Source: Pseudanabaena sp. UWO311
GTDB taxonomy: Bacteria; Cyanobacteriota; Cyanobacteriia; Pseudanabaenales; Pseudanabaenaceae
Reading direction: 5' to 3'
Length of the DNA stretch: 64,000 nucleotides
NCBI RefSeq assembly: GCF_006937785.1
Contig: NZ_SJEE01000012.1
Coordinates: 62,001 to 126,000, forward strand
In this document: positions 16,691-38,005 of the stretch, one piece after another
Numbering within the stretch: position 1 is the first letter of the stretch
Layout of the letters: every line of letters starts with the position of its first letter
Made by a program: the position numbers and the translations under genes
Notes under the pieces: model-generated
The model's input: only the letters and a program-made list of their open reading frames with translations
Databases searched by the model: none
What the model was told of the DNA's origin: nothing

Positions 16691-16696
16691 TTTCAA

Positions 16697-17356: not shown

Positions 17357-17457
17357 TTTGAATTAACTTGAAAATATATTCAATTGTAACCGTACGTTAT
17401 CAAGTACGTCAATGATTGTTTCAATTGTGTATAAGCGCAAATTACGAATTGTAGAAT

Positions 17458-17642
17458 TGTAGGGGTTTAGCATTTGCGCCACAATCCTCAAACACTTCAC
17501 AAAAAAATCATTCCGCAAATGCTAAACCCTCTTCGCTTTCAGCGATAAATTTTCCCTGCGATTTGAGGTTTTGGGCAAAGCATTCCCAATTTAAAAAAAT
17601 CTAAAAATCAATAAATCTCTGCGGGAATGCTATGCCCCTACA
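17458..17642 (-). mobile_element. MITE-like element, copy 2 (inverted relative to copy 1)
   Basis: 185 bp, again bounded by TGTAGGGG and CCCCTACA. Its reverse complement aligns along its length with 13972-14154, including the inner blocks GGGAATGCTTTGCCCAAAAC and GCGAAGAGGGTTTAGCATTT. The two copies lie on either side of hsdMS and the RelE/Phd pair. Confidence 0.75.
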
Positions 17643-17659
17643 CGAAAAAAATAAATCCC

Positions 17660-17692
17660 CAATTCGTAATTCGTAATTCCTAATTCGTAATT
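17660..17692. repeat. Heptanucleotide repeat tract after the GNAT toxin gene
   Basis: AATTCGTAATTCGTAATTCC followed by TAATTCGTAATTAA. The last TTA supplies the stop codon of the GNAT toxin gene on the minus strand. Confidence 0.7.
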
Positions 17693-18209: not shown

Positions 18210-18496
18210 TAAGTCCTCATGGTTTGCTTATATCTGACAGCCGCCGCCTTTAGAGTCTCATTAGGCAAAGGTGGATTCAGCACAGCCTCCACAAAAAGTT
18301 CACTATCTTCTCGATTAAGCATGAGAGTTTGGTGCTTCGCAATCACCGTATAAGCAGCCTCCTGTAAACTAGCAATCACAAAATCAGTGAGAGTACGCCC
18401 CTCTAAATCAGCCGCTTTTTGCCACATAGCCTTAATCTCAGGGCTAACACGAGCTTCCAGCCTCGCCATTGTCTTCGCAGGTGTTGCAGATGTCAT
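18209..18496 (-). CDS. DUF1778 antitoxin (TacA-like)
   Basis: About 95 residues. The ribbon-helix-helix N-terminal half (KTMARLEARVSPEIKAMWQK, then DLEGRTLTDFVIASL) is typical of DUF1778 antitoxins, and the C-terminal half (LNREDSELFVEAVLNPP) binds the acetyltransferase. I chose the ATG at 18496 (MTSATPAK); a GTG at 18517 in frame is an alternative. It lies upstream of and overlaps the toxin gene. Confidence 0.9.
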   Translation of the reverse strand: MTSATPAKTMARLEARVSPEIKAMWQKAADLEGRTLTDFVIASLQEAAYTVIAKHQTLMLNREDSELFVEAVLNPPLPNETLKAAAVRYKQTMRT

Positions 18497-18555
18497 AACA
18501 TTAATATTGAAATCCACAATAAATTATACGGCAATTAGACGTACATTAGTTATTT

Positions 18556-18700
18556 AATTACGAATTATTTAATTACGAATTACGCATGATGAGCAAACAA
18601 AGCAACACAGCAAAAAACGAGATGTAATGGCAATTCATGAATTGCCATTACATCTCAACATAGATTTTAATTCGTAATTGATAATTCGTAATTCGTAATT
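18556..18700. repeat. Heptanucleotide tracts flanking a perfect 38-bp palindrome
   Basis: AATTACGAATT tracts at 18556-18584 and TTCGTAATT tracts at 18668-18700 surround a perfect palindrome at 18619-18656 (GAGATGTAATGGCAATTCAT and complement, centre TTCATGAA). The last tract gives the stop codon of hsdR (minus strand). Confidence 0.75.
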
Positions 18701-26100: not shown

Positions 26101-27010
26101 GCGGATTTCGGGATTCTTTAGGGATGCCTTCCCAAATCTGATCGATTTATTTGATAGTGCGGTGAATGCAGTGGCGAATCTTGATGAACCTGCTGATCAG
26201 AATCCCCTAGCGGCAAAAGTCCAAGAAGAATCAGCACATTGGCAAGCAGAAGGGCTGACCATAGAACAAGCAGAAGAGCGATCGCGTTATCGGGTGTTTG
26301 GGTCGAAGCCAAGCGCTTATGGAGCTGGTTTGCAGGGCTTAATCGAGTCACAAAACTGGGAGAGCGAGCAGGATCTAGCCCGTGCATATATCAATTGGAG
26401 TGCCTACGCCTACACCAGCAAGTCTGAGGGTAAATCGGCTCCAGAAGCCTTTAATCAACGGCTCGGTAATATGCAAATCGTTCTGCAAAATCAGGACAAT
26501 CGCGAGCATGACATTCTGGATTCCGATGATTATTATCAGTTTCAGGGCGGAATGACGGCTGCGATCGCCTCGGTATCTGGCAATGCGCCAGAGGTATACT
26601 TTGGAGATAATTCACGGATGGCACAGCCCAAGGTTCGCAAATTGAGTGAAGAGATTGCACGGGTCTATCGATCGCGTGTCGTCAATCCCAAATGGATCGC
26701 AGGTGCGATGCGTCACGGCTACAAAGGCGCTTTTGAGATGTCAGCTACACTCGATTATTTGTTTGCCTATGATGCTACGACTAACTGCGTTTCTGACTTT
26801 ATGTATGAAGGAATTGCGGAAGCATATATTTTCAATCCTGAAGTCCAGAATTTTATTAAATCTAGCAATCCTTGGGCATTGCGCGACATGTCCGAGCGCT
26901 TGCTAGAAGCGAATCAGCGCGGGATGTGGCAAGATGTGACTGCGGATATGTTGGATCGCCTAAAGGCGATCGCAAATGATGCTGAAGGTGCGATCGAATC
27001 GCAATCATAG
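23192..27010 (+). CDS. cobN: Cobaltochelatase large subunit CobN
   Basis: Inserts cobalt into the corrin ring in B12 synthesis. 1272 residues, opening MHRIATISGGWN like cyanobacterial CobN proteins. The CobN/magnesium chelatase core contains AHIGKHGNLEWLPGKSVALS (about residue 568), NDPGEGSQAKRRSQAVILDH and DIRAVPTETAWDIGRKAADV. The window has no cobS or cobT. Cyanobacterial CobN is thought to borrow the ChlI/ChlD AAA+ subunits, and chlI is 24 kb away. Two G/C-rich palindromes are inserted in frame, at about residues 195-220 (PPQPPLRKGG) and 805-816 (PPTPLAKGG). ChlH was considered and rejected on its N-terminus. Confidence 0.9.
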   Translation: MHRIATISGGWNQSTDSVVFVDQQPAPIIIITAADTDIQTLAAATARLPEDFPQIRVVNVLQLQQQIAIDTYAEEVLASAKVIIVRLIGGQSYWSYGLEVVKETVANTGAILIVLPGDERPDPNLTSHSTTTLTLVNQAWQYFIEAGVENYHNLLKFIASEFLEFGSVYKTPQSVPRIGIYEVAYPQSSVSILELDPPQPPLRKGGEENSFSFLKGIEGDLGLAVILFYRAHYLSGNTAAIAALCDALTECNLKPLPIYVSSLKEPDVQAELIRYCLPESGQKVDVILNTTSFSLASLKTDSPQVDLWETLNVPVFQVIFSGGLRKTWANGTQGLTPRDMAMNMVLPEVDGRIITRAVSFKALQGQNSALQTEVLTYEPVRSRINFVADLAAKWVKLKHTEVGDRKIALILANYPNRDGRLANGVGLDTPASCLEILKALRSSGYSVGEIPETSDELMKLLTTGVTNDRESFGIRQVYQSLSLTDYQNYFQNLPEPVQNGISTRWNQPKQEQEFAIAGMQFGNIFVGIQPSRGYDLDPTLNYHAPDLEPTHDYMAFYHWVRDKFNAHAIAHIGKHGNLEWLPGKSVALSENCYPEAAFGAMPHFYPFIVNDPGEGSQAKRRSQAVILDHLTPPMTRAELYGGLHQLEGLIDEYYEAETLDPSRLGMIRDRLTALIKQENLHQDLGISLDRLEDSLNTILTTADGYLCEIKEAQIRDGLHIFGQCPEGRQLRDLVVAIARNPNANRMGLTRSIAQDWQLDFDPLTADLGELLESSLHPRLANCRIIGDAVEVIEEYAAELVAEILEEIPPTPLAKGGEIATELIWIRDRLLPSLYKTKQEITNLLRGLNGEYIASGASGAPTRGRPEVLPTGRNFYSVDIRAVPTETAWDIGRKAADVLIETYTQEHGEYPQTLGLSIWGTSTMRTGGDDLAEALALLGVQPVWDGVSRRVIDFEILPLSILGRPRVDVTLRISGFFRDAFPNLIDLFDSAVNAVANLDEPADQNPLAAKVQEESAHWQAEGLTIEQAEERSRYRVFGSKPSAYGAGLQGLIESQNWESEQDLARAYINWSAYAYTSKSEGKSAPEAFNQRLGNMQIVLQNQDNREHDILDSDDYYQFQGGMTAAIASVSGNAPEVYFGDNSRMAQPKVRKLSEEIARVYRSRVVNPKWIAGAMRHGYKGAFEMSATLDYLFAYDATTNCVSDFMYEGIAEAYIFNPEVQNFIKSSNPWALRDMSERLLEANQRGMWQDVTADMLDRLKAIANDAEGAIESQS
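23777..23852. repeat. Palindromic repeat inserted in frame in cobN (first)
   Basis: Outer arms GATCCCCCCCAGCCCCCCTT and AAGGGGATTGAGGGGGATC, with inner complementary C/G runs. It encodes PPQPPLRKGG... with no stop. Confidence 0.8.
25608..25640. repeat. Palindromic repeat inserted in frame in cobN (second)
   Basis: CCCCCCTTGCAAAGGGGGG core preceded by GATCCCCCCTA, a short version of the element at 23777. It encodes IPPTPLAKGG. Confidence 0.75.
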
Positions 27011-27011
27011 T

Positions 27012-27270
27012 AATGAAGTCACTTCGATTAATTGTTAATACGGCACGGTTATCAGCGATCGCAAAGGCTAATACGTCTTCATCGGGAATCCTTTGGTTGG
27101 CTTTTCCTGCTTCTTGGACTGTCAGAATATCATGCCCTAGCTCGCATAGTAGTTTGACGACAATTCTAGGGAATTGCTCATCGGCGTAGAGACTTGCTAT
27201 GTTAAGCTGCCTCTTTCTCGCCCATGAACTTCATCAATATGTGTTTCGGCAGTGTCATGATTTGTCTCTA
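27012..27270 (-). pseudogene. Decayed DUF433-DUF5615 toxin-antitoxin pair
   Basis: The minus strand from 27200 reads (I)ASLYADEQFPRIVVKLL... then VQEAGKANQRIPDEDVLAF, which is the start of DUF5615 PIN-like toxins. It runs into the cobN 3' end at about 27012, so the C-terminal half is lost. The start codon is ATA. Just before it (27201-27260) the other frame reads DTAETHIDEVHGRERGSLT-stop, the tail of a DUF433 antitoxin. Both partners are therefore broken. The normal order (antitoxin then toxin, overlapping) is kept. Confidence 0.8.
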
Positions 27271-27353
27271 TCGGTAAGTCGCGCAAGTAGTAAAAGCGAT
27301 CGCCTTTTTCTCCATCTCCCTTAATTCTTCCCAAATGCAGATACTGCCTTCAA
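27271..27353 (-). repeat. Cassette repeat R1 (displaced nuclease tail)
   Basis: The minus strand encodes YLHLGRIKGDGEKGDRFYYL then RDLPIET, homologous to the last ~28 codons of the nuclease at 31981-33399. Here the frame runs on into the decayed DUF433 tail. Confidence 0.85.
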
Positions 27354-27360
27354 TAAACTT

Positions 27361-27729
27361 TTAATCATCACTTTGCTGATAAATACGAATGCGTCCACGT
27401 TGAATGATCCAGAGTTTGCCTGTAATATCTTCACGTTCTAATCCATTAATTAGAGTCTGAATCGCATCTGTCAGATCGTCTATAGTTGCTCTAGGAGGTA
27501 ATCTTAAAACAGCTATTCCTTTGTATTGTGAAGGTACATATTGTAGAGGATTGCTAAAATCTATGTCGAGAGTAACTAGACAGCGATCTTCTTGCTGACA
27601 AACTTTTATGACAGTGGGATCTGAAGCTGAAATTAGTCTTTGCTCAAGGACAGTAGAAACATCGTAGCCTGCTTGTTTTAGCTGGTTTATGCCTCTTTGG
27701 CCAATATTCTCATCTAGTTTGAATTTCAT
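27361..27729 (-). CDS. DUF5615 PIN-like toxin
   Basis: 122 residues with the PIN-like acidic pattern MKFKLDENIG at the start and LVTLDIDFSNPLQY near residue 52. DUF5615 proteins are Mut7-C-like PIN-fold RNases that pair with DUF433 antitoxins. The gene overlaps the upstream DUF433 gene by four bases (ATGA). It lies between repeats R1 and R2. Toxicity is inferred from the family and its partner. Confidence 0.82.
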   Translation of the reverse strand: MKFKLDENIGQRGINQLKQAGYDVSTVLEQRLISASDPTVIKVCQQEDRCLVTLDIDFSNPLQYVPSQYKGIAVLRLPPRATIDDLTDAIQTLINGLEREDITGKLWIIQRGRIRIYQQSDD

Positions 27730-27974
27730 GCTGATTTCTCAATGGGAATATCAACATAGCGATCGCTTGACATTGCTGCTCCGTAAGCAATACAGGCATA
27801 AATATCTTCTGGTTGAAGTTGAGGATATTCTTCTAGCAATTCAGGGATGCTAGTACCATTCGCTAGAAAATCAAGGATTAGAGATACCCAAATGCGATGT
27901 CCTCGAATACAGGGTTTTCCAAAGCATATATTTGGATTGACTGAGATACGATTGAGAAGTTCTACTCGTTTCAT
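27726..27974 (-). CDS. DUF433 antitoxin
   Basis: 82 residues with the family pattern RISVNPNICFGKPCIRGHRI followed by VSLILDFLANGTSIPELLEEYPQL, a helix-turn-helix-like fold. It is the first gene of a DUF433/DUF5615 pair and is one of three DUF433 genes plus a remnant within 5 kb. Confidence 0.88.
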   Translation of the reverse strand: MKRVELLNRISVNPNICFGKPCIRGHRIWVSLILDFLANGTSIPELLEEYPQLQPEDIYACIAYGAAMSSDRYVDIPIEKSA

Positions 27975-28085
27975 GGCTGTATTTTTCTTTGATTTTAATC
28001 AGACTGCATGAATTACTAAATCGCTATTGCTCTAATTATTTCACATAACATTGTTGCCTATCTAATCACCAAATTAACAATTCAG

Positions 28086-28172
28086 ATCGCTAAGTCTCGT
28101 AGGTAGTAAATGCGATCGCCTTTTCTGACATCACTCTTATCTCTTCCCAAATATCCCGTCAATGGCGAAGAA
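28086..28172 (-). repeat. Cassette repeat R2 (displaced nuclease tail)
   Basis: Open on the minus strand as LSSSPLTGYLGRDKSDVRKG then DRIYYLRDLAI-stop. The frame is intact but the middle differs from R6, so it is an old or imported copy and not a recent duplicate. Confidence 0.85.
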
Positions 28173-28185
28173 CTCAGGCTTTAGA

Positions 28186-28413
28186 TTAGGCGGCGTAGCT
28201 ATAAACAGGTGTCTGAATTACACGCTTTGGTTCTTGACCGTCCAAAACAATTTGTTGTAGCAACATCACAGTTGATGGCGCAAAAAATTGCTCTCCTGTT
28301 TCTTCGTTTACACGAGCAGGAACATTCTCAATTAGGATGAATTTGCCCTTTAGTTCCAATGAGTAGGTTACTCGCTTTTCGACAATAAGCAAATCGGCGA
28401 TCAATACATTCAT
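28186..28413 (-). CDS. YgiT/MqsA-like antitoxin without zinc cysteines
   Basis: 75 residues. The middle reads FILIENVPARVNEETGEQFF, the signature of the MqsA/YgiT N-terminal domain, and it ends RVIQTPVYSYAA. The family normally binds zinc through two CxxC motifs. Here the positions carry no cysteine at all (N-terminus MNVLIADLLIVEKRVTYSLE). It follows a DUF433 gene and has no MqsR toxin beside it. Confidence 0.65.
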   Translation of the reverse strand: MNVLIADLLIVEKRVTYSLELKGKFILIENVPARVNEETGEQFFAPSTVMLLQQIVLDGQEPKRVIQTPVYSYAA

Positions 28414-28430
28414 CCAAAAGAATCCTCATA

Positions 28431-28649
28431 TTAGGCAGCCACACTCAACAAACTTCTTCCTAGCTCTTCCAAAAAGTAAATAACCTGTTCTCTCGTTACA
28501 GTCGGAAATCCATCCAAAAAATCATCAATCGATTCTCCCGCCTTGAGATAATCCAAAAGTGTCTGTACGGGAACTCTGGTATTTGTAAATACAGTCGTAC
28601 CACCCATAACATCAGAAGATTTGCTTATAAACTTGGAGTCTCTAAACAT
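28431..28649 (-). CDS. DUF433 antitoxin (orphan)
   Basis: 72 residues with the family pattern DVMGGTTVFTNTRVPVQTLL then LKAGESIDDFLDGFPTVTREQ. The usual DUF5615 toxin is missing; the next gene on the same strand, 17 bp away, is the YgiT-like protein. Either the toxin was lost or the two small proteins form an unusual pair. Confidence 0.85.
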   Translation of the reverse strand: MFRDSKFISKSSDVMGGTTVFTNTRVPVQTLLDYLKAGESIDDFLDGFPTVTREQVIYFLEELGRSLLSVAA

Positions 28650-28816
28650 AAATTTGTGATATTTAGATATATTTAATATTCTAGCAACTATCGATAAGCG
28701 ATCGCTACACTCATAAACCTATCAACAAGTAAAAGGCGATCGCCTATGCCGCGAATCATTAAGTAGTGTCATAATATAAAGCATCGTAACCAATGCGATC
28801 GCCAAAGGTAAATTTT

Positions 28817-29167
28817 ATGAACGCCAAACTGATTAATGGACAAACTAAGCTATCTATTAACGTCTTAGTCAAAAATGAAAAAGATGGCAGAGTCAGCGCT
28901 AGAGTATTAGGGCTACCTGAATATAGCGTTACTAGCAGCGATCGCAAATCAGCTATTTCTGAATTAGATCGATTAATTACTGCAAACTTATCAGAGAATG
29001 AAGTCGTATCTCTAGAACTAGAAATTCCTAAACGAAAACATCCTTGGCAAAAATTTGCAGGAATTTATAAAAATAGTCAGCTATTTGACTCCGTATTAAC
29101 CAACATTGACTCTCATCGCCGTGAACTGGATTCTCAGACAGCAATTCAAGAGGAAAAAATCGCTTGA
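28817..29167 (+). CDS. Probable antitoxin paired with a VapC-like toxin
   Basis: About 116 residues from the ATG at 28817. The N-terminal half (KLSINVLVKNEKDGRVSARV) looks like a HicB-type beta sheet, then a helix-rich tail. It overlaps the PIN-domain toxin by four bases (TTGA), which is the main reason to call it an antitoxin. It is the only plus-strand cassette within this TA run. Confidence 0.65.
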   Translation: MNAKLINGQTKLSINVLVKNEKDGRVSARVLGLPEYSVTSSDRKSAISELDRLITANLSENEVVSLELEIPKRKHPWQKFAGIYKNSQLFDSVLTNIDSHRRELDSQTAIQEEKIA

Positions 29168-29589
29168 GTCTATTGATACTCGATACCGATCATGCTTCTT
29201 TATTTCTCAAAGGAAATACTCTAGTTTGCGATCGCATATTTCAAACTGAACCAGATGACCTTGCTATCTCAGTCATAACGGCTGAAGAGATTTGCCAAGG
29301 ATGGCTTAGTGAAATTAATAAATATAGCCAAGCTAACCAGTCATCAAGACTACTTTTAGCCTATTCAGAATTCGAGAAATCTTTGGACTTCTTCCAAACT
29401 ATACAGAGACTTAGTTTTGATACTAACGCTTATAATCAGTTTGAGATTTTACGTCACCAATTTAGGCGTTTAGGTACGAGAGATTTAAGGATTGCAGCGA
29501 TCGCGTTATCTCTCAACGCCACTGTAATTACACGCAATGCAAAAGATTTTGGACAAATTCAAAACTTATCAATTGAAGATTGGTCTTAG
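29164..29589 (+). CDS. PIN-domain RNase toxin (VapC family)
   Basis: 141 residues with the PIN acidic residues in order: LLILDTDHASLF (D7), AEEICQGW, LGTRDLRIAAIAL and TRNAKDFGQI. VapC toxins cut tRNA or rRNA. The start is a TTG overlapping the antitoxin stop, since no ATG lies near the domain beginning. Confidence 0.87.
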   Translation: MSLLILDTDHASLFLKGNTLVCDRIFQTEPDDLAISVITAEEICQGWLSEINKYSQANQSSRLLLAYSEFEKSLDFFQTIQRLSFDTNAYNQFEILRHQFRRLGTRDLRIAAIALSLNATVITRNAKDFGQIQNLSIEDWS

Positions 29590-29601
29590 GTATAGAGCAA
29601 T

Positions 29602-29854
29602 CTACTTTTCGTAATGGAATTTACAGCTCACAATTATTAAAGAATCATCATTAATCTTATAGACTAAACGATGTCCATCAGAAATTCTCCTCGACCAACT
29701 GCCTTTTAGCTCGTACTTAAGCGGTTCAGGCTTGCCAATGCCGTCAAAAGGATTGATCAATCAAGCTAACAATTTTGCCATAGATTTTCTTATCCTCTTT
29801 TACTCAGTTATTAAAATCTTGAAATGCTTGTGGCTCAAATACGATATTTCTCAT
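29602..29854 (-). pseudogene. YoeB toxin pseudogene
   Basis: The minus strand from 29854 reads MRNIVFEPQAFQDFNN, then an in-frame TGA where YoeB has tryptophan, then VKEDKKIYGKIVSLIDQSF. A shift of frame follows, and it then reads DGIGKPEPLKYELKGSWSRR, ISDGHRLVYKI and ends SCKFHYEK-stop. The toxin is thus killed twice while its antitoxin (29835-30092) is intact. The closest intact relative in the window is the YoeB at 53320-53583. Confidence 0.88.
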
Positions 29855-30092
29855 GCCATTCCTCAGCAGAAATTGTTACAGAGCTTTCACCTTTTTCTAT
29901 ATTAGAAATTGCATCTAATAGCCTTTTACGATTTTTCTCATTCGATAGTAAGTACTCAGTTTCATCCTGATTATCAACTAATAGAATTACCTCAACCTGC
30001 GTACCCTCAATCAACTCTGGCGTATAAAGTTCAATCTTGCCATCTTTACCGACAGTTCCAATTTGCTTAATTGCCGTAACCATTGGCTGCAC
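29835..30092 (-). CDS. YefM/Phd-like antitoxin with a dead toxin
   Basis: 85 residues; the body matches antitoxins of YoeB pairs (ETEYLLSNEKNRKRLLDAIS, then acidic end). The AbrB-like N-terminus (KDGKIELYTPELIEGTQVEV) is different from the antitoxin at 53580. It overlaps the YoeB pseudogene by 20 bases. A TATAAT-like box lies about 20 bp upstream (near 30110), so it may still be expressed. Confidence 0.82.
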   Translation of the reverse strand: MQPMVTAIKQIGTVGKDGKIELYTPELIEGTQVEVILLVDNQDETEYLLSNEKNRKRLLDAISNIEKGESSVTISAEEWHEKYRI

Positions 30093-30149
30093 CTAATTTA
30101 TGTTCTCTATATTATAACTAACTTGACATCGGGAGATGTTCAAATTTTT

Positions 30150-30235
30150 ATGGTAAGTCTCGCAAGTAGTAAAAGCGATCGCACTTTTTACCAGCCTCTT
30201 CAACTCTTCCCAAATATCTTAAGCTAATGAGAAAA
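30150..30235 (-). repeat. Cassette repeat R3 (displaced nuclease tail)
   Basis: Reads FLISLRYLGRVEEAGKKCDR then FYYLRDLP-stop on the minus strand. It is in the same frame as, and directly after, the VapC stop codon at 30238-30240. It shares a left extension (TTTTCTCATTAGC) with R4. Confidence 0.85.
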
Positions 30236-30237
30236 TA

Positions 30238-30636
30238 TTAATCCCATATACGTGAAACTGGATAAGAATCAAAAGCGGTATCTTTGCTCACTAAGCTGAA
30301 GGAATAGTTTATTGCTTGGGCAATTAGTATGCGATCGAATGGATCTCGATGTTTTATCGGTGAATTTGGTAATGGAAGGCTAGAGTATATCTCAATATCC
30401 CTAATCGTAATTGGTAGAATTTGGATATTCATATATTGAAGTTCTATTGGTAATGCTTCAATAGGTCGATTTATTTGCAATTTACCAATATTAACTTTAA
30501 TGGAAACTTCCCAAAGACTGATAATGCTAAAATACAGATTATTCTGTGCGTCTACGATTTCTTTTGCTTTGGTACTAAGTTTAGGATCTTCGCTCAAATA
30601 CCATAAAATTACGTGTGTATCGAGAATATATTTCAT
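30238..30636 (-). CDS. PIN-domain RNase toxin (VapC family)
   Basis: 132 residues: MKYILDTHVILWYL (D6), the second acidic residue in ISLWEVSIKVNIGKL (E43), and PIKHRDPFDRILIAQAI with the DPFDR pattern of the Sll0205-like PIN group, then LVSKDTAFDSYPV. It lies two bases after the stop of its DUF2281 antitoxin. It is bounded exactly by repeats R3 and R4. Confidence 0.9.
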   Translation of the reverse strand: MKYILDTHVILWYLSEDPKLSTKAKEIVDAQNNLYFSIISLWEVSIKVNIGKLQINRPIEALPIELQYMNIQILPITIRDIEIYSSLPLPNSPIKHRDPFDRILIAQAINYSFSLVSKDTAFDSYPVSRIWD

Positions 30637-30637
30637 A

Positions 30638-30862
30638 TTACATATATTCCTCTAATTCTTCCAATGGCTCATCAAAATCACTTGACATAAAAATTTGACC
30701 AGCCCAACTACCATAGCCATGCTGTTGTTTTGCAGGTTGCTCATCAACGATTTTGACTATTGGATATTTGTTAAGTAGATATTCTGCATAATGCAAAAGT
30801 TCTGTTTTGAGTGTGTCTGGCATATTGATGACAACTTGCCATAAGGCGGTATCGGTATTCAT
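30638..30862 (-). CDS. DUF2281 antitoxin
   Basis: 74 residues. The helical start (NMPDTLKTELLHYAEYLL) and the later GYGSWAGQIFMSSDFDEPLE are typical of DUF2281 antitoxins of PIN toxins. A strong ribosome site AAGGAG precedes the ATG. It is coupled to the VapC gene downstream. Confidence 0.87.
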   Translation of the reverse strand: MNTDTALWQVVINMPDTLKTELLHYAEYLLNKYPIVKIVDEQPAKQQHGYGSWAGQIFMSSDFDEPLEELEEYM

Positions 30863-30900
30863 AATTTCTCCTTTTTGAGGTTTGCTAAAAATATATTAAC

Positions 30901-30986
30901 TTGGCAAGTCTCTCAGATAGTAAAAGCGATCGCACTTTTAGCCATCACTCTTATCTCTTCCCAACTATCTTAGGCTAATGAGAAAA
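30901..30986 (-). repeat. Cassette repeat R4 (decayed tail)
   Basis: Same sequence as R3 and R6, but the frame has two stops (LR-stop-LGRDKSDG-stop-KCDRFYYLRDLPS). It begins inside the 3' end of the broken nucleotidyltransferase gene. Confidence 0.82.
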
Positions 30987-31122
30987 CATCAATCCAAATA
31001 TCGATGTCTTTGGTGTATCGTGGATGTACATGTATGGCGACTGCATAGCCGCCAATGACTAAGTAGTTAACTTGGTTGCCGTTTAATAATTGTATAAATT
31101 CTTTGAAGTCTTGGTTGAGCAT
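30970..31122 (-). pseudogene. Truncated MNT-type nucleotidyltransferase
   Basis: The 50-residue minus-strand frame starts MLNQDFKEFIQLLNGNQVNY and carries the nucleotidyltransferase signature LVIGGYAVAIH...TKDIDIWID, then ends FSLA-stop where repeat R4 begins. Intact relatives run for about 140-180 residues more. The gene appears cut off by the repeat. Such proteins occur as toxins or partners in MNT-type TA systems. Confidence 0.75.
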
Positions 31123-31255
31123 TGTATTTGTATTGATGATATTCTTGGCGAATTTGTTCGAGGGTTTCTAGGCGTTTTTGGGGTGTTTGTTGTTGCCAGT
31201 ATTGAAAATCACTGACTTGTTGTTTGATGTTAGTTTTGATGATTACTTTTTCCAT
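31067..31255 (-). CDS. Small partner protein of the nucleotidyltransferase
   Basis: 62 residues, charged and helical (QQQTPQKRLETLEQIRQEYH, ending RLQRIYTIIKRQPS). It precedes the truncated nucleotidyltransferase and overlaps it by 56 bases in another frame. By position it is the antitoxin-like partner. I recognise the shape from cyanobacterial pairs of this kind but not a named family. Confidence 0.55.
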   Translation of the reverse strand: MEKVIIKTNIKQQVSDFQYWQQQTPQKRLETLEQIRQEYHQYKYNAQPRLQRIYTIIKRQPS

Positions 31256-31288
31256 GTTGTTTCTCTTCGTTTTAGTCTTCTTATTCTA

Positions 31289-31373
31289 TCGATAAGTCTC
31301 GTAAGTAGTAAAAGCGATCGCACTTTTCCCCTTTCTCTTCAACTCTTCCCAAATATCCCGCGAACGGTGAAGT
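31289..31373 (-). repeat. Cassette repeat R5 (displaced nuclease tail)
   Basis: Open as QTSPFAGYLGRVEEKGEKCD then RFYYLRDLSIE-stop, the closest match to the real nuclease end (R6). It has the same length between the GGATATTT and GCGATCGC blocks. Confidence 0.87.
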
Positions 31374-31441
31374 TTGTTTCTATTATTTCCGTCAAACAAA
31401 TGATTCAACAAGAGTAGAGTCCAAAAAGATAATCTGACTCA

Positions 31442-31651
31442 TTAGATTGAAATACCTTCGACAGATTCAATTATTTCCAAAGTTTCTTTCTGCTCATCTT
31501 CACTATCCAATATAGCCCATGTTGTAAATAATTGATTGATTCTTTGTCGTCTAAGATTTTGCTTTTCTGGATTGCAGTTATTAATCTCACTCATTGCATC
31601 ATCCCAAGCATTTGTCGATAAAGATTTAGTAATTCGCTGTTGTCGTGCCAT
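31442..31651 (-). CDS. Small hypothetical protein after a DUF433 antitoxin
   Basis: 69 residues, helical and charged (MARQQRITKSLSTNAWDDAM...). It starts two bases after the stop of the DUF433 gene, where a toxin would be expected, but it is not PIN-like. Function unknown; by position it may be a toxin or a second antitoxin subunit. Confidence 0.55.
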   Translation of the reverse strand: MARQQRITKSLSTNAWDDAMSEINNCNPEKQNLRRQRINQLFTTWAILDSEDEQKETLEIIESVEGISI

Positions 31652-31652
31652 G

Positions 31653-31979
31653 TTAAGCTGCCTCTTGCCTATGAAGGGCTGTTTCTATTTCATCAGGATG
31701 GGTTTCGGCGTAGCGCCATGCGTTTGCTAGGTCGGTTGCGGTGAGGGTGGGATAGTCTTCGAGGATGTAGGCTTCGCTTGCGCCTTGGTGTTGGAGGCTT
31801 ACTAGCAGCCATACGGGTATGCGGGTTTGACGAATGCAAGCGTCACCACCCATGACTCTTGGATTTTTTTCGATGCCTTGCCATGTGTTGCTAAGACTTT
31901 GGACTAGGATTTGGATTGCTTGAGATTTTTCTTCGGGGGTTAGGGATAGTAGTTGTGGTTGTAGTTCTTTGAGTGTCAT
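31653..31979 (-). CDS. DUF433 antitoxin, long form
   Basis: 108 residues. A helical N-terminal extension (MTLKELQPQLLSLTPEEKSQ) precedes the DUF433 core (NPRVMGGDACIRQTRIPVWL, then HQGASEAYILEDYPTLTATD). Its ribosome site AGGAGA lies inside the last codons of the nuclease gene, and the ATG starts right after that stop. It is thus coupled to the nuclease operon. Confidence 0.87.
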   Translation of the reverse strand: MTLKELQPQLLSLTPEEKSQAIQILVQSLSNTWQGIEKNPRVMGGDACIRQTRIPVWLLVSLQHQGASEAYILEDYPTLTATDLANAWRYAETHPDEIETALHRQEAA

Positions 31980-31980
31980 A

Positions 31981-33399
31981 TTATGTCTCCTTTTCTATCG
32001 GTAAGTCTCGCAGGTAGTAAAAGCGATCGCACTTTTTCCCGTTCTCCTCTACTCTTCCTAAATATCCTGCCAATGGTGAAGAAAGCTCAATTAGTATTTC
32101 TTTTAGTTCTTCTATAGATAGATTCTGTGTATGTGGATTATTAAAAAATACTCCCTCAAGAACTTTTAGCTCTACATCGTTAGCTCTTCTTGAAGATAAA
32201 TAGGTGCTAACTAAGCTAACAATCTGAGATCGTAGTTTGATCTCATTTTCAACTTTTTGAATATACTCATCAACCTTATGATCGGCTTGACCAGCTATGA
32301 GATACGGTCTAAGTTCGATTAAATTTATCGCTCTCGAATGTTTATGATTTAATTCGACTAATTTTTGTAATGATCTTGGGTTAATAATACTGATATTCTT
32401 TCTAATCGCTCTTCTTTGAATTTGTGGTGTTGGTTTACCCGCACCGATGATCAGTTTCTGAGCGTTGGCAACTATATGATCCTCAAGATGATCGTCACTT
32501 AGATTATCCAATTCGTAAACAGTATTACCAGGTATATTTTTGCCAGATTTACATTCTCCTATTAGTGGAAATGGCTTTGAGCAAAACAAATCTAACCCTC
32601 CAGAACCTCCAGCATGAACATGATCAACTGTAAATCCAATAAACTCCAAGCTTTTTTTAACAATATTCTCAAAATCTGTTCCAGCTTTTACATTACTCTT
32701 TTTTTCTAATGTTTCGATACTGCGATCGCCTAAAGTTGAAATTGTTTTTATCCAATCTGATTCAGCCTCATTCGGCTGTTCAATATCTGCTATTTGAGCA
32801 CTTGAATTTTCATCAACTAAATCTACAGTAACTGTAGTATTTGGCTCTACGTCAATAAATCCATCTAGAAGGCTAGGATGTATATCTAGAAATTCATCAG
32901 CTATGATAGAAGTAGTCGAAATCTCGTTAGGAATAACTGATAAATCTATGCTTTGAAATTGTTTTTGAGCTTCTTGAAACTGCTCATCATTCAGAATAGG
33001 CATCCGCTCAATAATTGTAACTGCTTCTGATAAAGGGACAAAATTACCTGTTGCTTGCGGTTGAACTTGAATGGGATTAGGCAATTGATAAACGCGCAAA
33101 GATAATAGAAATATATTTGCGCGTTGTTGAAAGATGCTTTCTAATTCTTCGGTAGACAATGCTGTGAATTTTGAAAGATTTGATAAGGGGAAAGTATTAT
33201 TAATCGATTCACAGTTTTTACATTCTGCCCAAAATTCGACATTTATTGTCTCTGAGTCTTGAACTTGTAAGTCGGGATAGAGTGCAAAGCATTTGTCGAG
33301 AGCAAGAAAAGTTTTAGAAAAAGCACCAACGATTTTTCCACTTTTCAAAGCATCTAAATTTGTTGCCGAAATGCGTAAACCGTTGGCGATGGAAATCAT
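31981..33399 (-). CDS. PD-(D/E)XK nuclease of a candidate three-gene defence operon
   Basis: 472 residues. A ~110-residue N-terminal domain (with paired cysteines in WAECKNCES) is followed by an acidic linker. A Mrr-like nuclease core follows: GTDFENIVKKSLEFIGF (E244), GGSGGLDLF (D270) and LIGECKSGK (E282, K284), the complete PD-(D/E)XK set. The C-terminal 28 residues (YLGR...DRFYYLRDLPIEKET) are encoded by repeat R6. The gene is last in an operon with a P-loop ATPase and a small winged-helix-like protein. A DNA-cutting defence role is inference from this make-up and from the surrounding TA and restriction genes. Confidence 0.8.
   Translation of the reverse strand: MISIANGLRISATNLDALKSGKIVGAFSKTFLALDKCFALYPDLQVQDSETINVEFWAECKNCESINNTFPLSNLSKFTALSTEELESIFQQRANIFLLSLRVYQLPNPIQVQPQATGNFVPLSEAVTIIERMPILNDEQFQEAQKQFQSIDLSVIPNEISTTSIIADEFLDIHPSLLDGFIDVEPNTTVTVDLVDENSSAQIADIEQPNEAESDWIKTISTLGDRSIETLEKKSNVKAGTDFENIVKKSLEFIGFTVDHVHAGGSGGLDLFCSKPFPLIGECKSGKNIPGNTVYELDNLSDDHLEDHIVANAQKLIIGAGKPTPQIQRRAIRKNISIINPRSLQKLVELNHKHSRAINLIELRPYLIAGQADHKVDEYIQKVENEIKLRSQIVSLVSTYLSSRRANDVELKVLEGVFFNNPHTQNLSIEELKEILIELSSPLAGYLGRVEENGKKCDRFYYLRDLPIEKET
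31998..32083 (-). repeat. Cassette repeat R6 (in the nuclease gene itself)
   Basis: The copy that forms the genuine 3' end of the nuclease gene. The five other copies R1-R5 lie downstream on the same strand between TA cassettes and keep the same orientation. Confidence 0.88.
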
Positions 33400-33435
33400 A
33401 AAATTTATCTGACTCTAACAAAAAAGTGGTGTTGG

Positions 33436-35361
33436 TTATTCAAGAAAACTATCGATATCAATATTAACTTCATCAGTAATATCAATAAAAGTTGGTTTTA
33501 CTTCATTGCTTTCATTCTCAATTACTGGCTCAGCTTCACTATCATCATCAGAAATGATATTTGAAGGATTACTTAGGATTTCTTTAATCAGGAGATTATT
33601 GAAGGCGATTTGTGAATCAGCAATAAAAGTTGAAATAGCATCTTCGCTTACACCATATCCTTCGCGCTTGTCATACACAGCAAGAATCGCTATAAGTGGT
33701 TTTACTTGTTCAGCTTCTAGATGGATAAATTCACCACCCATCTGATCAAGTTTAATTCGCCAATTGTGTGCTTCCCAATATTTTTTGATCTTACGATCTT
33801 GTGAGCGAATCATGCAGCCACGAGTAAGCTTAAATGTGTCATACATTGTCAGCTTATTCATCCTTGAGCCGACAGTCAGCCCATGAGTATGCTGAATTAC
33901 AGCAACACCGATCACCTCTTCTTTACCATTCTCCGTTGCAATAATCTTAAATTGAATCGATCTATTATTTTCTTTGACAGGCTTAATTTGATTTGTGACA
34001 TCTTGAATCAGAACATTCTCAATTGTTTGTCCTCTGAGGGTCGTCAATCCAAGATAGATCGCTCTGGCGATAAGTTCACTGTCATCCAAGAAATCTTCAC
34101 CATCTTGAGATAATTCTCTTTCATAGGCTTTTTGAATCAAGTCTTTCTGGTTAACAGGTTGTGGGGAGACTCTAAAGTTATCACGACACCATTTCAACAA
34201 TGCTCTGATAGTCGGCTTTTCGCTTCCTAAAGATCTCAGTTTCTCTTCCTCAAAAGGAAACACAGGATTTGGTGGTACAAGGTTGTGAGATTGATAAAAC
34301 TCTTGAAGCCATAGATCTACGATACTAACAACAGCTTCTCCATCTGCATATTTTAGGTCAAGAGGTTCTGGATATTTTGACGAGAGTCTATCTCCTATTC
34401 CCTCTACACCTGATCCTTTAAGAACATTGACAAGTTGTTCCCAAATAGTAGGAGGTATAACTGATAAAATTACAACTCCTTTCGTAACATCAGACTGTTG
34501 AATAGCATCAAATAAGTCTTTGACTAGACCTCCAACAACTTGAGATTTAAAGTAACCAGCCTCGTTAACCTCAGTGCCTTCTAGTTCGTCAAAACAGATT
34601 AAAATAGGGTTGTAATCAGAAGCTATGCTGATAATCTGTAGTGCTGCACTTAGTGCATCTGCCTCTAATAATTTGATTTCCCTAGTTGGATTTGGCAATC
34701 CAAGTTCTTTTGCCTTAGCGTCTGACAACTCTTTACCAGCAAGCCATCTAATCGCAAAAGGGGCATGGGCGGAGTCTCCCAATGTCCATAAAATTGCTCT
34801 AACGATATCAGGATCGCCGACTTTTGGTTTTGCTTTAAGGATGGCATTGGTGAGTTTATCAATCAGATCGTGGTTTTTTGCCAAGGCTAGGGGGAATTTT
34901 TCAACTAGCTCTAATGCGGGTTTTTTACTGGAAACGACTTGGTTAACCATCGCCGCAGCTAGCTCTTGCCACTGGGTTATGCCCTGTCCATTTGACTGTT
35001 TTAGGCTGTCAGCTAAAATCTGGCGAAATTGATAGTGAATCAAATTCAAATCACCATACTTATTTGCGTAGACAAAAAAAGCGCTTTTATCCGCTTGCAA
35101 GCGTTGGCGAATACGCCTAATCAAATGGCTTTTTCCCACACCGATTTCGGCTCTGAATGCTAAAGACGTTACCTTGGGTTTACCTGATCTGACTTGCTCA
35201 ATCACTTCAAAAACTGCATCTGAGGCATGAGCGTTTAAAGTCGTTAAATCAGGAAAACTGCCATTCCAAATATCTTGACCTGTGACAATTGGCGGTACAT
35301 CAAAGGGATTATTCTTATTGATTACTTTGTAAAGTTCATCAAATGATGACGGTGTAGACAT
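33436..35361 (-). CDS. P-loop ATPase of the candidate defence operon
   Basis: 641 residues. Walker A is AEIGVGKSHL (71-80) and Walker B is ILICFDELEG (253-262), with an AAA+-like order of segments around them (sensor-like VVILSVIPPTIWEQL). The C-terminal 200 residues (TIENVLIQDVTNQIKPVKEN...) form an unassigned domain, ending in an acidic tail. It has the general build of the large loader-type ATPases in BREX- and phosphorothioation-linked systems, but I cannot place it in a named family. It lies 36 bp before the nuclease gene and 54 bp after the small protein gene. Confidence 0.78.
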   Translation of the reverse strand: MSTPSSFDELYKVINKNNPFDVPPIVTGQDIWNGSFPDLTTLNAHASDAVFEVIEQVRSGKPKVTSLAFRAEIGVGKSHLIRRIRQRLQADKSAFFVYANKYGDLNLIHYQFRQILADSLKQSNGQGITQWQELAAAMVNQVVSSKKPALELVEKFPLALAKNHDLIDKLTNAILKAKPKVGDPDIVRAILWTLGDSAHAPFAIRWLAGKELSDAKAKELGLPNPTREIKLLEADALSAALQIISIASDYNPILICFDELEGTEVNEAGYFKSQVVGGLVKDLFDAIQQSDVTKGVVILSVIPPTIWEQLVNVLKGSGVEGIGDRLSSKYPEPLDLKYADGEAVVSIVDLWLQEFYQSHNLVPPNPVFPFEEEKLRSLGSEKPTIRALLKWCRDNFRVSPQPVNQKDLIQKAYERELSQDGEDFLDDSELIARAIYLGLTTLRGQTIENVLIQDVTNQIKPVKENNRSIQFKIIATENGKEEVIGVAVIQHTHGLTVGSRMNKLTMYDTFKLTRGCMIRSQDRKIKKYWEAHNWRIKLDQMGGEFIHLEAEQVKPLIAILAVYDKREGYGVSEDAISTFIADSQIAFNNLLIKEILSNPSNIISDDDSEAEPVIENESNEVKPTFIDITDEVNIDIDSFLE

Positions 35362-35415
35362 TACAAACCTCTTTTTATTATTTTTTAATTTAATTACCTC
35401 GGATCTAATGATTCT

Positions 35416-36054
35416 CTATAGAAGCTTGGCATAGTAGCGCAATCCGCCTAATTCGGTTGTAATCGAGTCGCGTTCCTTGTCTGGAGTAAGGTCTGCAACT
35501 CCACCTGTTATAAACTGAAAAATTTCTTTGGCTTGAGTTTCTAGTAGCCATTTATCAAATTGAGCGCGTGTTACGAGATCGCCGATCGCTCTTCTGATTT
35601 GATAAATCGGCACAAGATTACTGAGGTTATAATCTCGGTTGAGTTGTTTATAGGTTTCGATCGCCACAACCTTAAACTCTTCGTAAGTCGAGATCTTAGG
35701 CGCGATCGCATCCACACTCACACCAACACCTTGGTTTTGCCTAAACCATCTCAAGGCAGCATTCGCCAACCGACTGCCCACCAACTGACCCTCAAACCCA
35801 AAATCCGCCGACAATAAACCCGCCGCCAACTGTTGCGAACCCGCATCCGTCAGCGACAACTTCGGCACTTTCTTATCCATCGTCAAAGCGATCGCGCCAC
35901 TATCAGCAAGATCGTTCAAACTAACTTCATAAACAGCTTTCTTTTCCTTACCCTTATAGGGGCGCAAAAGCTCACTTTTCTTGACTAGCCCTTGCCCATT
36001 TCCCAAGCCCCACAAATTTAGAAGCAAACGAATCTCTGTATTAACTTTACTCAT
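35416..36054 (-). CDS. Small winged-helix-like protein of the candidate defence operon
   Basis: 212 residues. The first 85 look like a winged helix (LVKKSELLRPYKGKEKKAVY, then LNDLADSGAIALTMDKKVPK and LSLTDAGSQQLAAGLL), suggesting DNA binding. The rest is helical (ALRWFRQNQGVGVSVDAIAP; YNLSNLVPIYQIRRAIGDLV). First gene of the minus-strand operon with the ATPase and nuclease. No named family recognised. Confidence 0.72.
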   Translation of the reverse strand: MSKVNTEIRLLLNLWGLGNGQGLVKKSELLRPYKGKEKKAVYEVSLNDLADSGAIALTMDKKVPKLSLTDAGSQQLAAGLLSADFGFEGQLVGSRLANAALRWFRQNQGVGVSVDAIAPKISTYEEFKVVAIETYKQLNRDYNLSNLVPIYQIRRAIGDLVTRAQFDKWLLETQAKEIFQFITGGVADLTPDKERDSITTELGGLRYYAKLL

Positions 36055-36619
36055 TGTTATTTCTTAGGTTACGAACCCGAACTATGTAAATATCTGCAAA
36101 GCAAAAACAAAACTGAAATCAAGCAACTGCACCCACTTTTTTTAGGATAATACTTTTCTGACCTGTTTTCTAAATTTCCAAGGATTAAATCGTTTATGGA
36201 AAAGCTTTCTAGCATTGCTAAATGACGTTGATTTGATTTGCAGCAAAGGGATCAAAGCCTAAACTGTAACTCTCAATACTTGAGAGGCATAGCCTAAATC
36301 ATCATAATGTAAGGATCTACAGGAAGCGCAAGGTGAATCGCCTTGCGCCCTAAGTACCTCAGCATAATTAAAAAACCAGAGCCAAAATCTTTACCGCACG
36401 CGCAGCCTATGGCTTTGGGTTTTATATTTAATTGTGCATAGCTTTCTACAGCAATTTCAGACCAAAATAACTACAAAAAATTTTTTGAAAGTTTTGCTTA
36501 TTAAAAATTTCAAAAAATTTATTGGTTATGGTTTGACCGCAAAGCGCTGTAAAAAAACATGCAGTGCCCAAAATAACTGCATTTAACTTTGAATATCCTC
36601 GTATAAGTACCCATAGCCT
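36055..36619. other. 565-bp gap with no supported gene
   Basis: Divergent region between the defence operon and the antiporter. It holds one hairpin, GCGCAAGG...CCTTGCGC at 36326-36348, and A/T-rich DNA from 36460 to 36520. A 67-residue minus-strand frame (36446-36649) crosses the antiporter start and has no protein-like features. Promoters for both sides must lie here, but none stands out. Confidence 0.6.
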
Positions 36620-38005
36620 ATGTTTTCGACCAATGCGATCGCCAATCACCTATCTGGATTGCAAATACCTTACACTCTACTTGCCACAGCCGAGGCAGAC
36701 AATGCTCCAGTTATTTTGTCAGGGGTATTGCTCACCTTCATTGTCATTTACATCGCTAGTAAAGTTGGTAGTGAAATTGCTAAGCGACTAGACCTACCTC
36801 CTGTTTTAGGAGAATTAGTTGCTGGTGTGATTATTGGTGTATCCGCATTGCGCTTAGTCATCTTTCCTGAAGGTGGTTTTGCTGCATCGGACTCTTTGAT
36901 CATGTCGGGCTTGCAGTTGCTCAACAACCTATCACCCGAAGCCGTTAATAGCATATTTGCAGAACAAAGCGAAGTAATTTCGGTAATAGCTGAATTGGGC
37001 GTAATTGTCCTTCTATTTGAGATTGGTTTAGAGTCAGATTTGCGCCAACTCAAAGAAGTCGGTATCCAAGCTTTTGTAGTTGCCTTTATCGGAGTGACTG
37101 CTCCCTTTGCGGCTGGGACACTCGGACTAATGTACTTCTTCCATGTTGCCGCGATTCCCGCTATTTTTGCAGGAGCGGCTCTTACAGCAACCAGTATTGG
37201 CATTACATCCAAAGTCCTAGCAGAAATCGGTCAGCTAAAATCCAAGGAAGGACAAATCATCGTTGGTGCTGCTGTCATCGATGACGTATTGGGAATTATC
37301 GTTTTAGCAGTGGTAGCGAGTTTGGCGAAAACAGGTGAGGTTGATATTACCAACGTCGCTATTCTCTTAATCAGCGCGATCGCCTTCTTGTTTGGAGCAA
37401 TCTTGTTAGGTGGTTTCTTTAACAAAAGTTTTGTTGCAATAGTTGATAAGCTCCAGACTCGCGGCAATATCGTCATTCCTGCTTTTATCTTTGCCTATGT
37501 GATGGCTTTTATCGGGAATGCAATCCATTTAGAAGCAATTTTAGGAGCCTTCGCCGCAGGCTTGGTACTTGATGAAACGGATGCTCGCAAAGAATTAGAT
37601 GAACTGGTTAAACCCATTGCGGATTTACTCGTACCCGTTTTCTTTGTGACTGTAGGAGCAAGAGCCGATCTCAGTGTCCTCAATCCGATGATCCCTGAAA
37701 ACCGCAGCGGCTTATTAATCGCAGTATTTATGCTCGCAGTGGCGATCGCGGGTAAAGTCATCACAGGTTGGGTCGTTTTTGGCATACCCGATATCAATCG
37801 CCTAGCGATCGGTGTGGGTATGATTCCCCGTGGTGAAGTCGGTCTAGTATTTGCAGGGATTGGTACGGCTAGCGGTGCGCTCGACAAGCCTCTAGAGGTA
37901 GCCATTATCATCATGGTAATCATGACCACATTCCTTGCACCTCCATTTCTGCGGATAGCCTTTGGGAACCCCAAGGAACCGACAGCAAGTGGAGAATTAG
38001 CATAA
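36620..38005 (+). CDS. CPA2-family Na+(K+)/H+ antiporter (NapA/NhaS3-like)
   Basis: 461 residues with about 12-13 membrane helices. The double-aspartate ion site of CPA2 antiporters is visible as GAAVIDDVLGIIVLAVV (about residues 215-231). The crossover segment LTATSIGITSKVLAEIG and the late VGMIPRGEVGLVFAGIG are family hallmarks. Length and sequence style match cyanobacterial NhaS3, the antiporter that keeps thylakoid and cytosol ions balanced; that assignment is from family knowledge. It is convergent with the glutathione-transferase-fold gene. Confidence 0.9.
   Translation: MFSTNAIANHLSGLQIPYTLLATAEADNAPVILSGVLLTFIVIYIASKVGSEIAKRLDLPPVLGELVAGVIIGVSALRLVIFPEGGFAASDSLIMSGLQLLNNLSPEAVNSIFAEQSEVISVIAELGVIVLLFEIGLESDLRQLKEVGIQAFVVAFIGVTAPFAAGTLGLMYFFHVAAIPAIFAGAALTATSIGITSKVLAEIGQLKSKEGQIIVGAAVIDDVLGIIVLAVVASLAKTGEVDITNVAILLISAIAFLFGAILLGGFFNKSFVAIVDKLQTRGNIVIPAFIFAYVMAFIGNAIHLEAILGAFAAGLVLDETDARKELDELVKPIADLLVPVFFVTVGARADLSVLNPMIPENRSGLLIAVFMLAVAIAGKVITGWVVFGIPDINRLAIGVGMIPRGEVGLVFAGIGTASGALDKPLEVAIIIMVIMTTFLAPPFLRIAFGNPKEPTASGELA

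Follow-up and report, generated by a model that had tools for sequence, protein, structure and literature searches.

Why does a compact nuclease operon stand directly at the head of a string of toxin–antitoxin (TA) genes, and are the two connected? The question is raised by a locus of Pseudanabaena sp. UWO311, within a 64,000-nucleotide stretch (contig NZ_SJEE01000012.1, positions 62,001 to 126,000) that we call the window. Here, three genes, A, B and C, are followed by a TA array that begins 1 base past the stop codon of C, directly at the 3′ end of the operon, as a preliminary description of the locus had stated. We find that A-B-C is a previously unnamed cyanobacterial operon. The array is tied to it through copies of the 3′ end of C, a connection that the preliminary description overlooked. 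We favor an explanation in two layers, with a probability of roughly 0.58: A-B-C would be a restriction-like machine, and the 3′ end of its nuclease gene would serve as an insertion site for TA cassettes. All three open reading frames (ORFs) are present on the minus strand at the sizes originally reported.

35416..36054, minus strand: gene A, 212 amino acids (aa), from the ORF list; no significant family match in PADLOC, Pfam or NCBIfam
33436..35361, minus strand: gene B, 641 aa, AAA+ ATPase of Cdc6/Orc1-TnsC-BrxC type
31981..33399, minus strand: gene C, 472 aa, DUF1802 (predicted PUA/ASCH-like), PD-(D/E)XK nuclease and predicted C-terminal winged helix

A conserved three-gene unit

Profile matches to B occur in 81 of 386 cyanobacterial genomes at E ≤ 0.001; by our own count they fall below 1e-30 in 56 of those 81, and the remainder are weaker relatives. 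Genes A, B and C stand in order in 39 of 40 loci fetched across the phylum (L069 has B alone) and in 77 of 79 named cyanobacterial loci drawn from the best 80 of 221 B matches, the other two ending at a contig edge before A. Among 14 further loci, nine have A-B-C, one has A-B at a contig edge and four have B alone. The phylum and named sets overlap (for example, L031/L082, L033/L085 and L039/L097), so counts over L031–L149 include duplicates; L071 and L073–L076 also overlap the loci collected from the genus, and many loci are metagenome-assembled genomes (MAGs). That A-B-C is a conserved unit is virtually certain.

Key residues are conserved as well. The preliminary description was right that B has intact Walker motifs (Walker A G74xG76K77, Walker B D258 and E259) and that C has a complete nuclease set (E244, D270, E282 and K284), which is invariant across 44 aligned sequences. 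Walker A in the form GxGK[ST]H is kept in 75 of 76 relatives of B and the FDE pattern in 70 of 76, and FE..GGxGGxD..[EV]CK in 72 of 74 relatives of C. Over 70 loci, the distances of A, B and the C N-terminus correlate (Mantel r 0.50–0.61; maximum of 300 permutations 0.17), whereas the nuclease half of C is nearly decoupled from B (Mantel r 0.13, permutation maximum 0.12). Judged from sequence, this suggests that the cutting half of C may have been exchanged between related operons. In the closest relative of the window operon (L071), B is 87% identical and C 63%, and the nuclease half appears exchanged.

Within Pseudanabaena the operon is patchy. A match to B is found in 14 of 26 genomes, some as fragments only, and the operon lies at different sites in several relatives. 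An ordinary flanking gene is present in 26 of 26 genomes and, of those compared, has the operon beside it in just two, G000 and G403. A-B-C is thus accessory in this genus. Pseudanabaena loci L071 and L073–L076 encode B proteins 70–87% identical to that of the window, and two MAGs labelled as other genera (L072 and L077) encode B at 81–85% identity.

Some genomes depart from the single three-gene arrangement. Oscillatoria PCC 10802 carries three tandem sets of A-B-C (L079, 3-13374), L090 has B-ABC-ABC, L050 and L118 have B-A-B-C, and L126 and L109 have a second C. Four genomes of one genus carry B paralogues without A or C (L209–L212, 484–494 bits to the B profile), and two of the four also have a full A-B-C.

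Predicted architecture and a possible role in defence

The N-terminal domain of C, described earlier as unknown, is indeed present and is not unknown: it matches Pfam DUF1802 (E 2.5e-15). Other matches of C are a weak one to Mrr_cat (E 0.01) and a weak one to the PADLOC CARF-PDDEXK model (E 3.3e-6, residues 280–350). AAA_16 and Sll1717-family matches of B fall below the Pfam/NCBIfam cut-off, and a sequence search of the PDB gave nothing for C and one chance match for B.

The structural model of C (mean predicted local distance difference test, pLDDT, 80.5) has three parts, with residues 154–210 at low confidence. Residues 1–119, DUF1802 only by sequence, are predicted to be PUA/ASCH-like (ZmASCH, E 2.5e-5; TTHA0113, Z 9.2, 3.3 Å over 109 residues). 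Residues ~154–385 model as a PD-(D/E)XK domain (Nt.BspD6I, Z 15.1, 3.1 Å over 172; FokI, 14.2; HindIII, 12.4), and residues 386–472 as a winged helix (Z ~10 to Orc1-type winged helices). In the model of B (pLDDT 83.8) residues ~2–402 align with Cdc6/Orc1 and TnsC at Z 13–14 and with BrxC at 13.0, scores that many AAA+ folds reach; the best Foldseek match is weak (E 2.5e-3). Gene A had been called small and DNA-binding-like, which is plausible from its sequence; its product is probably a winged-helix DNA-binding protein.

From these parts we propose that the three proteins work together as one DNA-processing machine, most probably one that provides restriction-like, ATP-dependent defence. A DNA feature such as a modified base would be read by the predicted PUA/ASCH-like domain of C, possibly together with A, and B would assemble on DNA and license the PD-(D/E)XK domain of C to cut. 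We regard restriction or defence as the likeliest role, at somewhat better than even odds. With this operon, cyanobacteria gain a conserved nuclease system of three genes, whose proposed restriction mechanism can be tested.

The gene neighborhood does not bear out the claim of a defence role. In a PADLOC comparison of 120 flank and 120 control proteins from the same genomes (taken from 153 and 129 ORFs, respectively, with the first 25 families per table viewed), flanks gave 49 families and controls 92, with 7 and 6 members in the top family; since the tables count families, not distinct proteins, they show no sign of enrichment but do not prove its absence. The genes immediately upstream of A (81 proteins, 66 loci) belong for the most part to housekeeping families, rhodanese and NUDIX among them, and include a single PemK and a single PIN. 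On the other side, immediately downstream of C (99 proteins, 71 loci), we find ParE, ParD, DUF433, DUF4258, DUF5615, YoeB and MqsA, the commonest family being Uma2 (13), which is widespread in cyanobacteria. The flank asymmetry in TA families lies at the C end.

Copies of the end of C among TA genes

The window holds six copies of a 94-base sequence, all in the orientation of C. One is the 3′ coding end of C, and five lie among the TA genes between 27.2 and 31.4 kb. The translated copies are remnants of the C-terminal hairpin of C (GYLGR..DRFYYLRDLP). We refer to them as tails.

31988..32081, minus strand: tail of C itself, source of the array copies; contains the HIP1 octamer GCGATCGC
31279..31372, minus strand: tail copy 1, non-coding, 86% identical to the C tail
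30891..30984, minus strand: tail copy 2, from sequence comparison
30140..30233, minus strand: tail copy 3, from sequence comparison
28077..28170, minus strand: tail copy 4, from sequence comparison
27261..27354, minus strand: tail copy 5, from sequence comparison

Between and around the tails lie small genes, many in pairs, that we call cassettes and number by type where they recur in other genomes.

31653..31979, minus strand: first cassette gene, DUF433 protein (Pfam), type 19; start codon 1 base past the C stop codon
31442..31651, minus strand: small ORF of 69 aa behind the DUF433 gene; no Pfam match
30970..31255, minus strand: cassette type 74, a 62-aa ORF and a short second ORF, neither with a Pfam match; type in 7 loci
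30238..30862, minus strand: cassette type 75, DUF2281 and PIN pair (Pfam); 6 loci
29602..30092, minus strand: cassette type 44, an 85-aa ORF and a shortened YoeB-like ORF; the intact second gene in L170 is YoeB
28793..29589, plus strand, opposite within the array: PIN toxin and 124-aa partner (ORFs, Pfam)
28186..28413, minus strand: antitoxin-like gene, 75 aa, resembling by eye the second gene of cassette type 18
27361..27974, minus strand: cassette type 86, DUF433 and DUF5615 pair (ORFs; families from the L173 relative)

The Shine-Dalgarno-like AAGGAG of the first DUF433 gene sits within C.

Tail DNA is common in the genus: it occurs in 24 of 26 Pseudanabaena genomes, clustered at one or two places in each (33 best candidates per genome scored). 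From 26 of 27 genus loci we gathered 91 tails, 15 of which are real C ends (one, L181, on a C cut by the contig). Sixty-nine of the 91 precede one of 13 recurrent cassette types, each shared by two or more loci. Type 19 (DUF433/DUF5615) occurs in 13 loci, mostly with its start codon 14–15 bases past the tail. A Pfam check spanning seven of the 13 types placed putative TA pairs in six (families DUF433/DUF5615, DUF4258, PIN with a partner and YoeB), type 74 having no match. Cassette order varies; for example, the unit at 30989-31372 comes first after C in L156 but has other positions in L162, L164 and L165.

Tails also carry information about the cassettes that follow them. Those preceding the same cassette are more alike than others (0.819 versus 0.793; reached in 0 of 1000 within-locus shuffles), and the identity of same-cassette tails is clearly above that of other pairs only from ~30 bases past HIP1 (0.79 versus 0.45). 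The 15 C ends precede at least eight recurrent cassette types, and, translated by eye, the residues after RDLP together with the stop codon track the first cassette: PIEKET-stop for type 19 (window, L159), PS-stop for type 75 (L165, L181), PIE-stop for type 74 (L156) and PCDTQD-stop for type 44 (L161). We have little doubt that this is a C-tail array with exchangeable cassettes.

Two further observations concern array genomes. Segments 27012-27215 and 31644-31979 of the window are adjacent in L156, L157, L162 and L164, the arrangement expected of a DUF433-DUF5615 pair. Their separation by 4.4 kb in the window points to rearrangement of the array. N-terminal fragments of gene A lie 2–5 kb from C tails at L170:13071-13415 and L179:2331-2663, in two genomes without B, and are perhaps remnants of a lost operon.

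Displaced gene ends in other cyanobacteria

To look beyond the genus, we compared the last 120 bp of each operon gene with the surroundings of its own locus. Copies of the gene end lie nearby for C in 18 of 118 loci, for A in 3 of 117 and for B in 1 of 120; two of the 18 are probably chance matches (L078, on the opposite strand, and L137, 20 bases long at a distance of 5.3 kb), so that 16 remain. Same-strand copies within 2.2 kb downstream occur for C in 15 of 110 loci, compared with 8 of 818 other genes (Fisher p 1.1e-9). The count for C is 13 of 110 without two soft cases, L084 (a weak 32-base match, not found again with a longer query) and L109 (a second whole C), and several of the eight control genes with copies look like duplicated neighbors.

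Nine repeats at 74–98% identity lie in eight loci outside Pseudanabaena (L041, twice, L042, L062, L081, L102, L117, L139 and L141), from Nostoc, Scytonema, Plectonema and other genomes. All nine have left edges 0–8 bases from the first base of the HIP1 octamer in C. Right edges vary, two repeats stopping 9 or 15 bases before the end of the C stop codon. The units between these repeats include ParDE (L139) and a recurrent pair on the strand opposite to C, a 120-aa protease-like protein and a 105-aa protein. The pair, whose 120-aa member is retropepsin-like, lies directly downstream of C at L139:14379-15052 and also in L117, L042, L081 and L141; the L139 copy has no Pfam match, and we note it as a candidate TA-like pair.

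The most direct view of an insertion comes from loci that share a 219-aa downstream gene. Seven of these are empty, with 297–462 bp from the C stop codon to that gene (L084 served here as an empty site), and five are filled, with 1247–2269 bp. In L041, the stretch that runs from the second of the displaced tails up to the shared gene can be aligned to the empty L124, there from 46 bases before the C stop codon to the same gene (76.5% over 494 columns, E 3e-102); L042 has the same junction, more weakly (74% over 108 columns). For two loci at least, these alignments indicate that TA-bearing DNA pushed away the original 3′ end of C and that C now has another copy of its own end.

HIP1 and a proposed insertion mechanism

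The HIP1 octamer is concentrated in the end of C. The final 70 bp of C contain it in 73 of 118 loci, those of A in 1 of 117 and those of B in 1 of 120, compared with ~6% predicted from its density, and in 68 of the 73 it lies 38–50 bases before the end of the C stop codon. The available part of a published study (PMC4390886) presents evidence tying HIP1 to site-specific recombination, with a repeat module precisely inserted at HIP1 in cyanobacteria.

We propose that small TA cassettes insert at the 3′ coding end of C, each bringing its own copy of the right part of the C tail. Recombination in the shared tail, with its left edge at or near the HIP1 octamer (codons for D-R), would join C to the cassette, which would then provide the last residues and stop codon of C while the older end shifts downstream. 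Repeated events would build a tandem array, with units reshuffled between strains. A candidate for the enzyme is whatever mediates the reported HIP1-linked site-specific recombination of cyanobacteria; the benefit could be read-through expression of the TA cassettes or an operon locked in by addiction. Insertion at the 3′ end of C near HIP1 is, in our judgment, likely. It would offer a concrete route by which TA genes pile up beside a nuclease operon, the last gene being the landing site and the incoming cassette completing it. If this is confirmed, the HIP1 palindrome, abundant but so far unexplained, would gain a defined recombination role, and a cassette platform would be seen to work without an adjacent integron integrase.

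Weighing the explanations

Several observations, besides the PADLOC result for the flanks, weigh against the two-layer explanation. On the side of the operon, B occurs without A or C in 4 of the 14 further loci, and the reader and winged-helix roles depend on predicted folds. In 16 other loci one shared neighbor lies within 2.5 kb downstream, and there the operon looks resident, not mobile; searches of plasmids (C), phages (B) and viral contigs (B alignment) gave no match. On the side of the array, tails occur in 10 of 12 Pseudanabaena genomes without B (in G393 as a single copy where a contig ends), and can therefore be kept without A-B-C. Tails after the same cassette are slightly alike too (0.805 versus 0.791, a comparison made without shuffles), and the cassette–tail linkage is therefore not one-sided. 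Other repeats outside Pseudanabaena run 5–96 bases past the C stop codon (five loci), and that of L117 is a 788-base tandem duplication of tail and TA pair at 90% identity, which fits duplication as well. The displaced junction is seen in just two of five filled sites; the continuation of the L062 copy cannot be aligned, and L110 and L056 have no copy. The link between HIP1 and copies is modest (14 of 16 copy-bearing loci, p = 0.027), and C has a conserved D-R pair for which codon choice favors GATCGC, contributing to the HIP1 count.

Could A-B-C be a resident DNA-maintenance or repair complex of cyanobacteria instead of a defence system? The unenriched flanks, the downstream neighbor common to 16 loci and the resemblance of B to Cdc6/Orc1 are in keeping with this, but its patchiness within one genus (14 of 26), the different sites in relatives, the apparent swapping of the nuclease half between related operons and the tandem copies make it unlikely, if still a serious contender. 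For the array, the tails may be remnants of tandem duplication of the C end, of C or of A-B-C, with TA genes accumulating by ordinary insertion and deletion and no special recombination site. Tandem operons and extra C genes do occur (three A-B-C sets in L079, two C in L109, a second C in L126), as do the L117 duplication and the gene A fragments near the arrays of L170 and L179, and the Pseudanabaena copies extend further left than HIP1. We nonetheless consider duplication rather improbable: none of the nine left edges outside Pseudanabaena is more than 8 bases from HIP1, in L041 as compared with L124 the original end lies beyond the TA genes with the original flank behind it, and the same cassettes recur in many genomes, mostly at constant spacing to the tail and in different orders. 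Plain RecA-mediated homologous recombination between C tails after a first TA insertion, with HIP1 incidental, has a minor but real chance of being correct. The tails share a segment of ~67 bp with roughly 50–100% identity by position, long enough for weak homologous exchange, and the exact crossover cannot be placed within it. Exchange alone leaves unexplained why other lineages have founding events of their own whose left edges are at HIP1, and also why the ends of A and B go unused.

Integron activity, in which a genomic IntI moves cassettes and tails act as attC-like sites, appears very unlikely. In its favor, 13 of 26 Pseudanabaena genomes carry IntI-family genes that pass the curated cut-off, short recombinase fragments (21–25 residues) lie ~2.4 kb from the arrays of G392 and G391, and TA cassettes are common in integrons according to the accessible portion of one source (PMC8618304). 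Yet on contigs that carry a tail, no IntI above the cut-off comes within 100 kb of it (draft genomes, not exhaustive). In the window genome, IntI is represented by no more than a 37-residue match, which is on another contig, and a different recombinase by a weak match. The site lies within the coding sequence of C, also outside Pseudanabaena. We rejected IntI as the driver, having found only short recombinase fragments at the arrays. Tails as attC sites were likewise rejected: the window tails fold no better than shuffles (six tails, both strands, z −1.16 to +1.19, without an attC covariance model). A further possibility, to which we would give little credence, is that A-B-C itself captures the cassettes, as a self-targeting platform, distinct from integrons and transposons alike, in which the ATPase, the nuclease and a DNA-binding protein would cut at HIP1 in the end of their own nuclease gene. 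That the ATPase is TnsC-like and the nuclease has a TnsA-like order of domains strengthens the idea, and the persistence of tails without B weakens it. If true, such a platform would couple nuclease defence to an addiction array.

Relation to known systems

The preliminary description could name no system for this gene order, and profile searches of PADLOC, Pfam and NCBIfam gave no strong match either. With the three genes kept together elsewhere, both outcomes on which its case for a new operon had been staked, the lack of a known match and co-occurrence in other genomes, were observed. We rejected the idea that A-B-C is a known system, there being no convincing match in these databases beyond DUF1802 in C. 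The literature searched by title or abstract opening, in which subscription journals lie mostly outside coverage, contains nothing on this operon or array; DUF1802 appears there in a soil network study only, as far as the available text of that study goes.

Closest in plan are the modification-dependent endonucleases with a PUA-type reader (EVE-HNH VcaM4I; EVE, YTH or DCD with McrB or PD-(D/E)XK), which have a PUA-like domain fused to or paired with a nuclease, an arrangement that is predicted for C. The available sections of two accounts describe a PUA-like domain with a nuclease and, in the McrBC branch, a P-loop NTPase (PMC7641849, PMC7897488). As in these enzymes, the nuclease of C has intact catalytic residues, in a predicted fold with Z 12–15. 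Unlike them, C has DUF1802 in place of EVE, SRA or YTH and a FokI/HindIII-type nuclease with its own winged helix, B is a Cdc6/TnsC-type ATPase rather than McrB, and gene A is extra; searched up to E 1, Pfam, NCBIfam and PADLOC match none of the three proteins to McrB or McrC. The AAA+ core of B also recalls systems with ORC/Cdc6-type ATPases (BrxC, BrxD, DUF499), among them bacteriophage exclusion (BREX), through its alignment with BrxC; the accessible part of one source places BrxC in the ORC/Cdc6 clade and reports ASCH/PUA readers in a related system (PMC12839542). In contrast to BREX, no PglZ, methyltransferase or BrxA/B/L is conserved with A-B-C, and there is no BREX match in PADLOC up to E 1.

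With Tn7 and CRISPR-associated transposons (CAST), the likeness is in the predicted TnsC-like fold of B and in insertion at a gene end. TnsA is a PD-(D/E)XK nuclease with a C-terminal winged helix, as predicted for C. Unlike in Tn7, no fourth gene conserved with A-B-C was seen and A, B and C have no transposase match (the flanks had no TnsB-directed search), and the array repeats are gene ends of ~32–100 bp or more, whereas Tn7-type repeats are short target duplications. The array shares with integrons its tandem, reshuffled and largely TA cassettes, which are aligned with a leading gene and have a repeated, site-like sequence between them (91 tails, 13 recurrent types). It differs from them in having no adjacent IntI above cut-off and no attC-like fold in the window tails; a nuclease gene provides the first site, at its 3′ coding end, and takes its stop codon from the cassette. 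Genomic islands that integrate in gene 3′ ends duplicate the gene end and restore the reading frame with the incoming DNA, as in the C array, but the array units are mostly under ~1 kb, tandem and, as far as seen, without a recombinase of their own.

Other features of the window

The restriction neighborhood emphasized at first is real in that restriction genes lie in the window (14183-21237), but they are ~11 kb away, with oxidoreductase-like and CobN/chelatase genes intervening. By Pfam they are type I-like restriction-modification genes, an N6_Mtase with Methylase_S and a ResIII/HsdR-type gene. Elsewhere in the genus, IntI above the cut-off, along with many fragments, was recorded in G392, G391, G395, G394, G346, G407, G399, G405, G397, G398, G193, G403 and G282. 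An Rfam scan of window positions 26500-37500 gave no match. Between A and a Na/H exchanger gene, at 36435-36563, lies a 61-nt inverted repeat; similar sequence is found at other places in the relatives L151, L152 and L158, and it is perhaps a small dispersed element.

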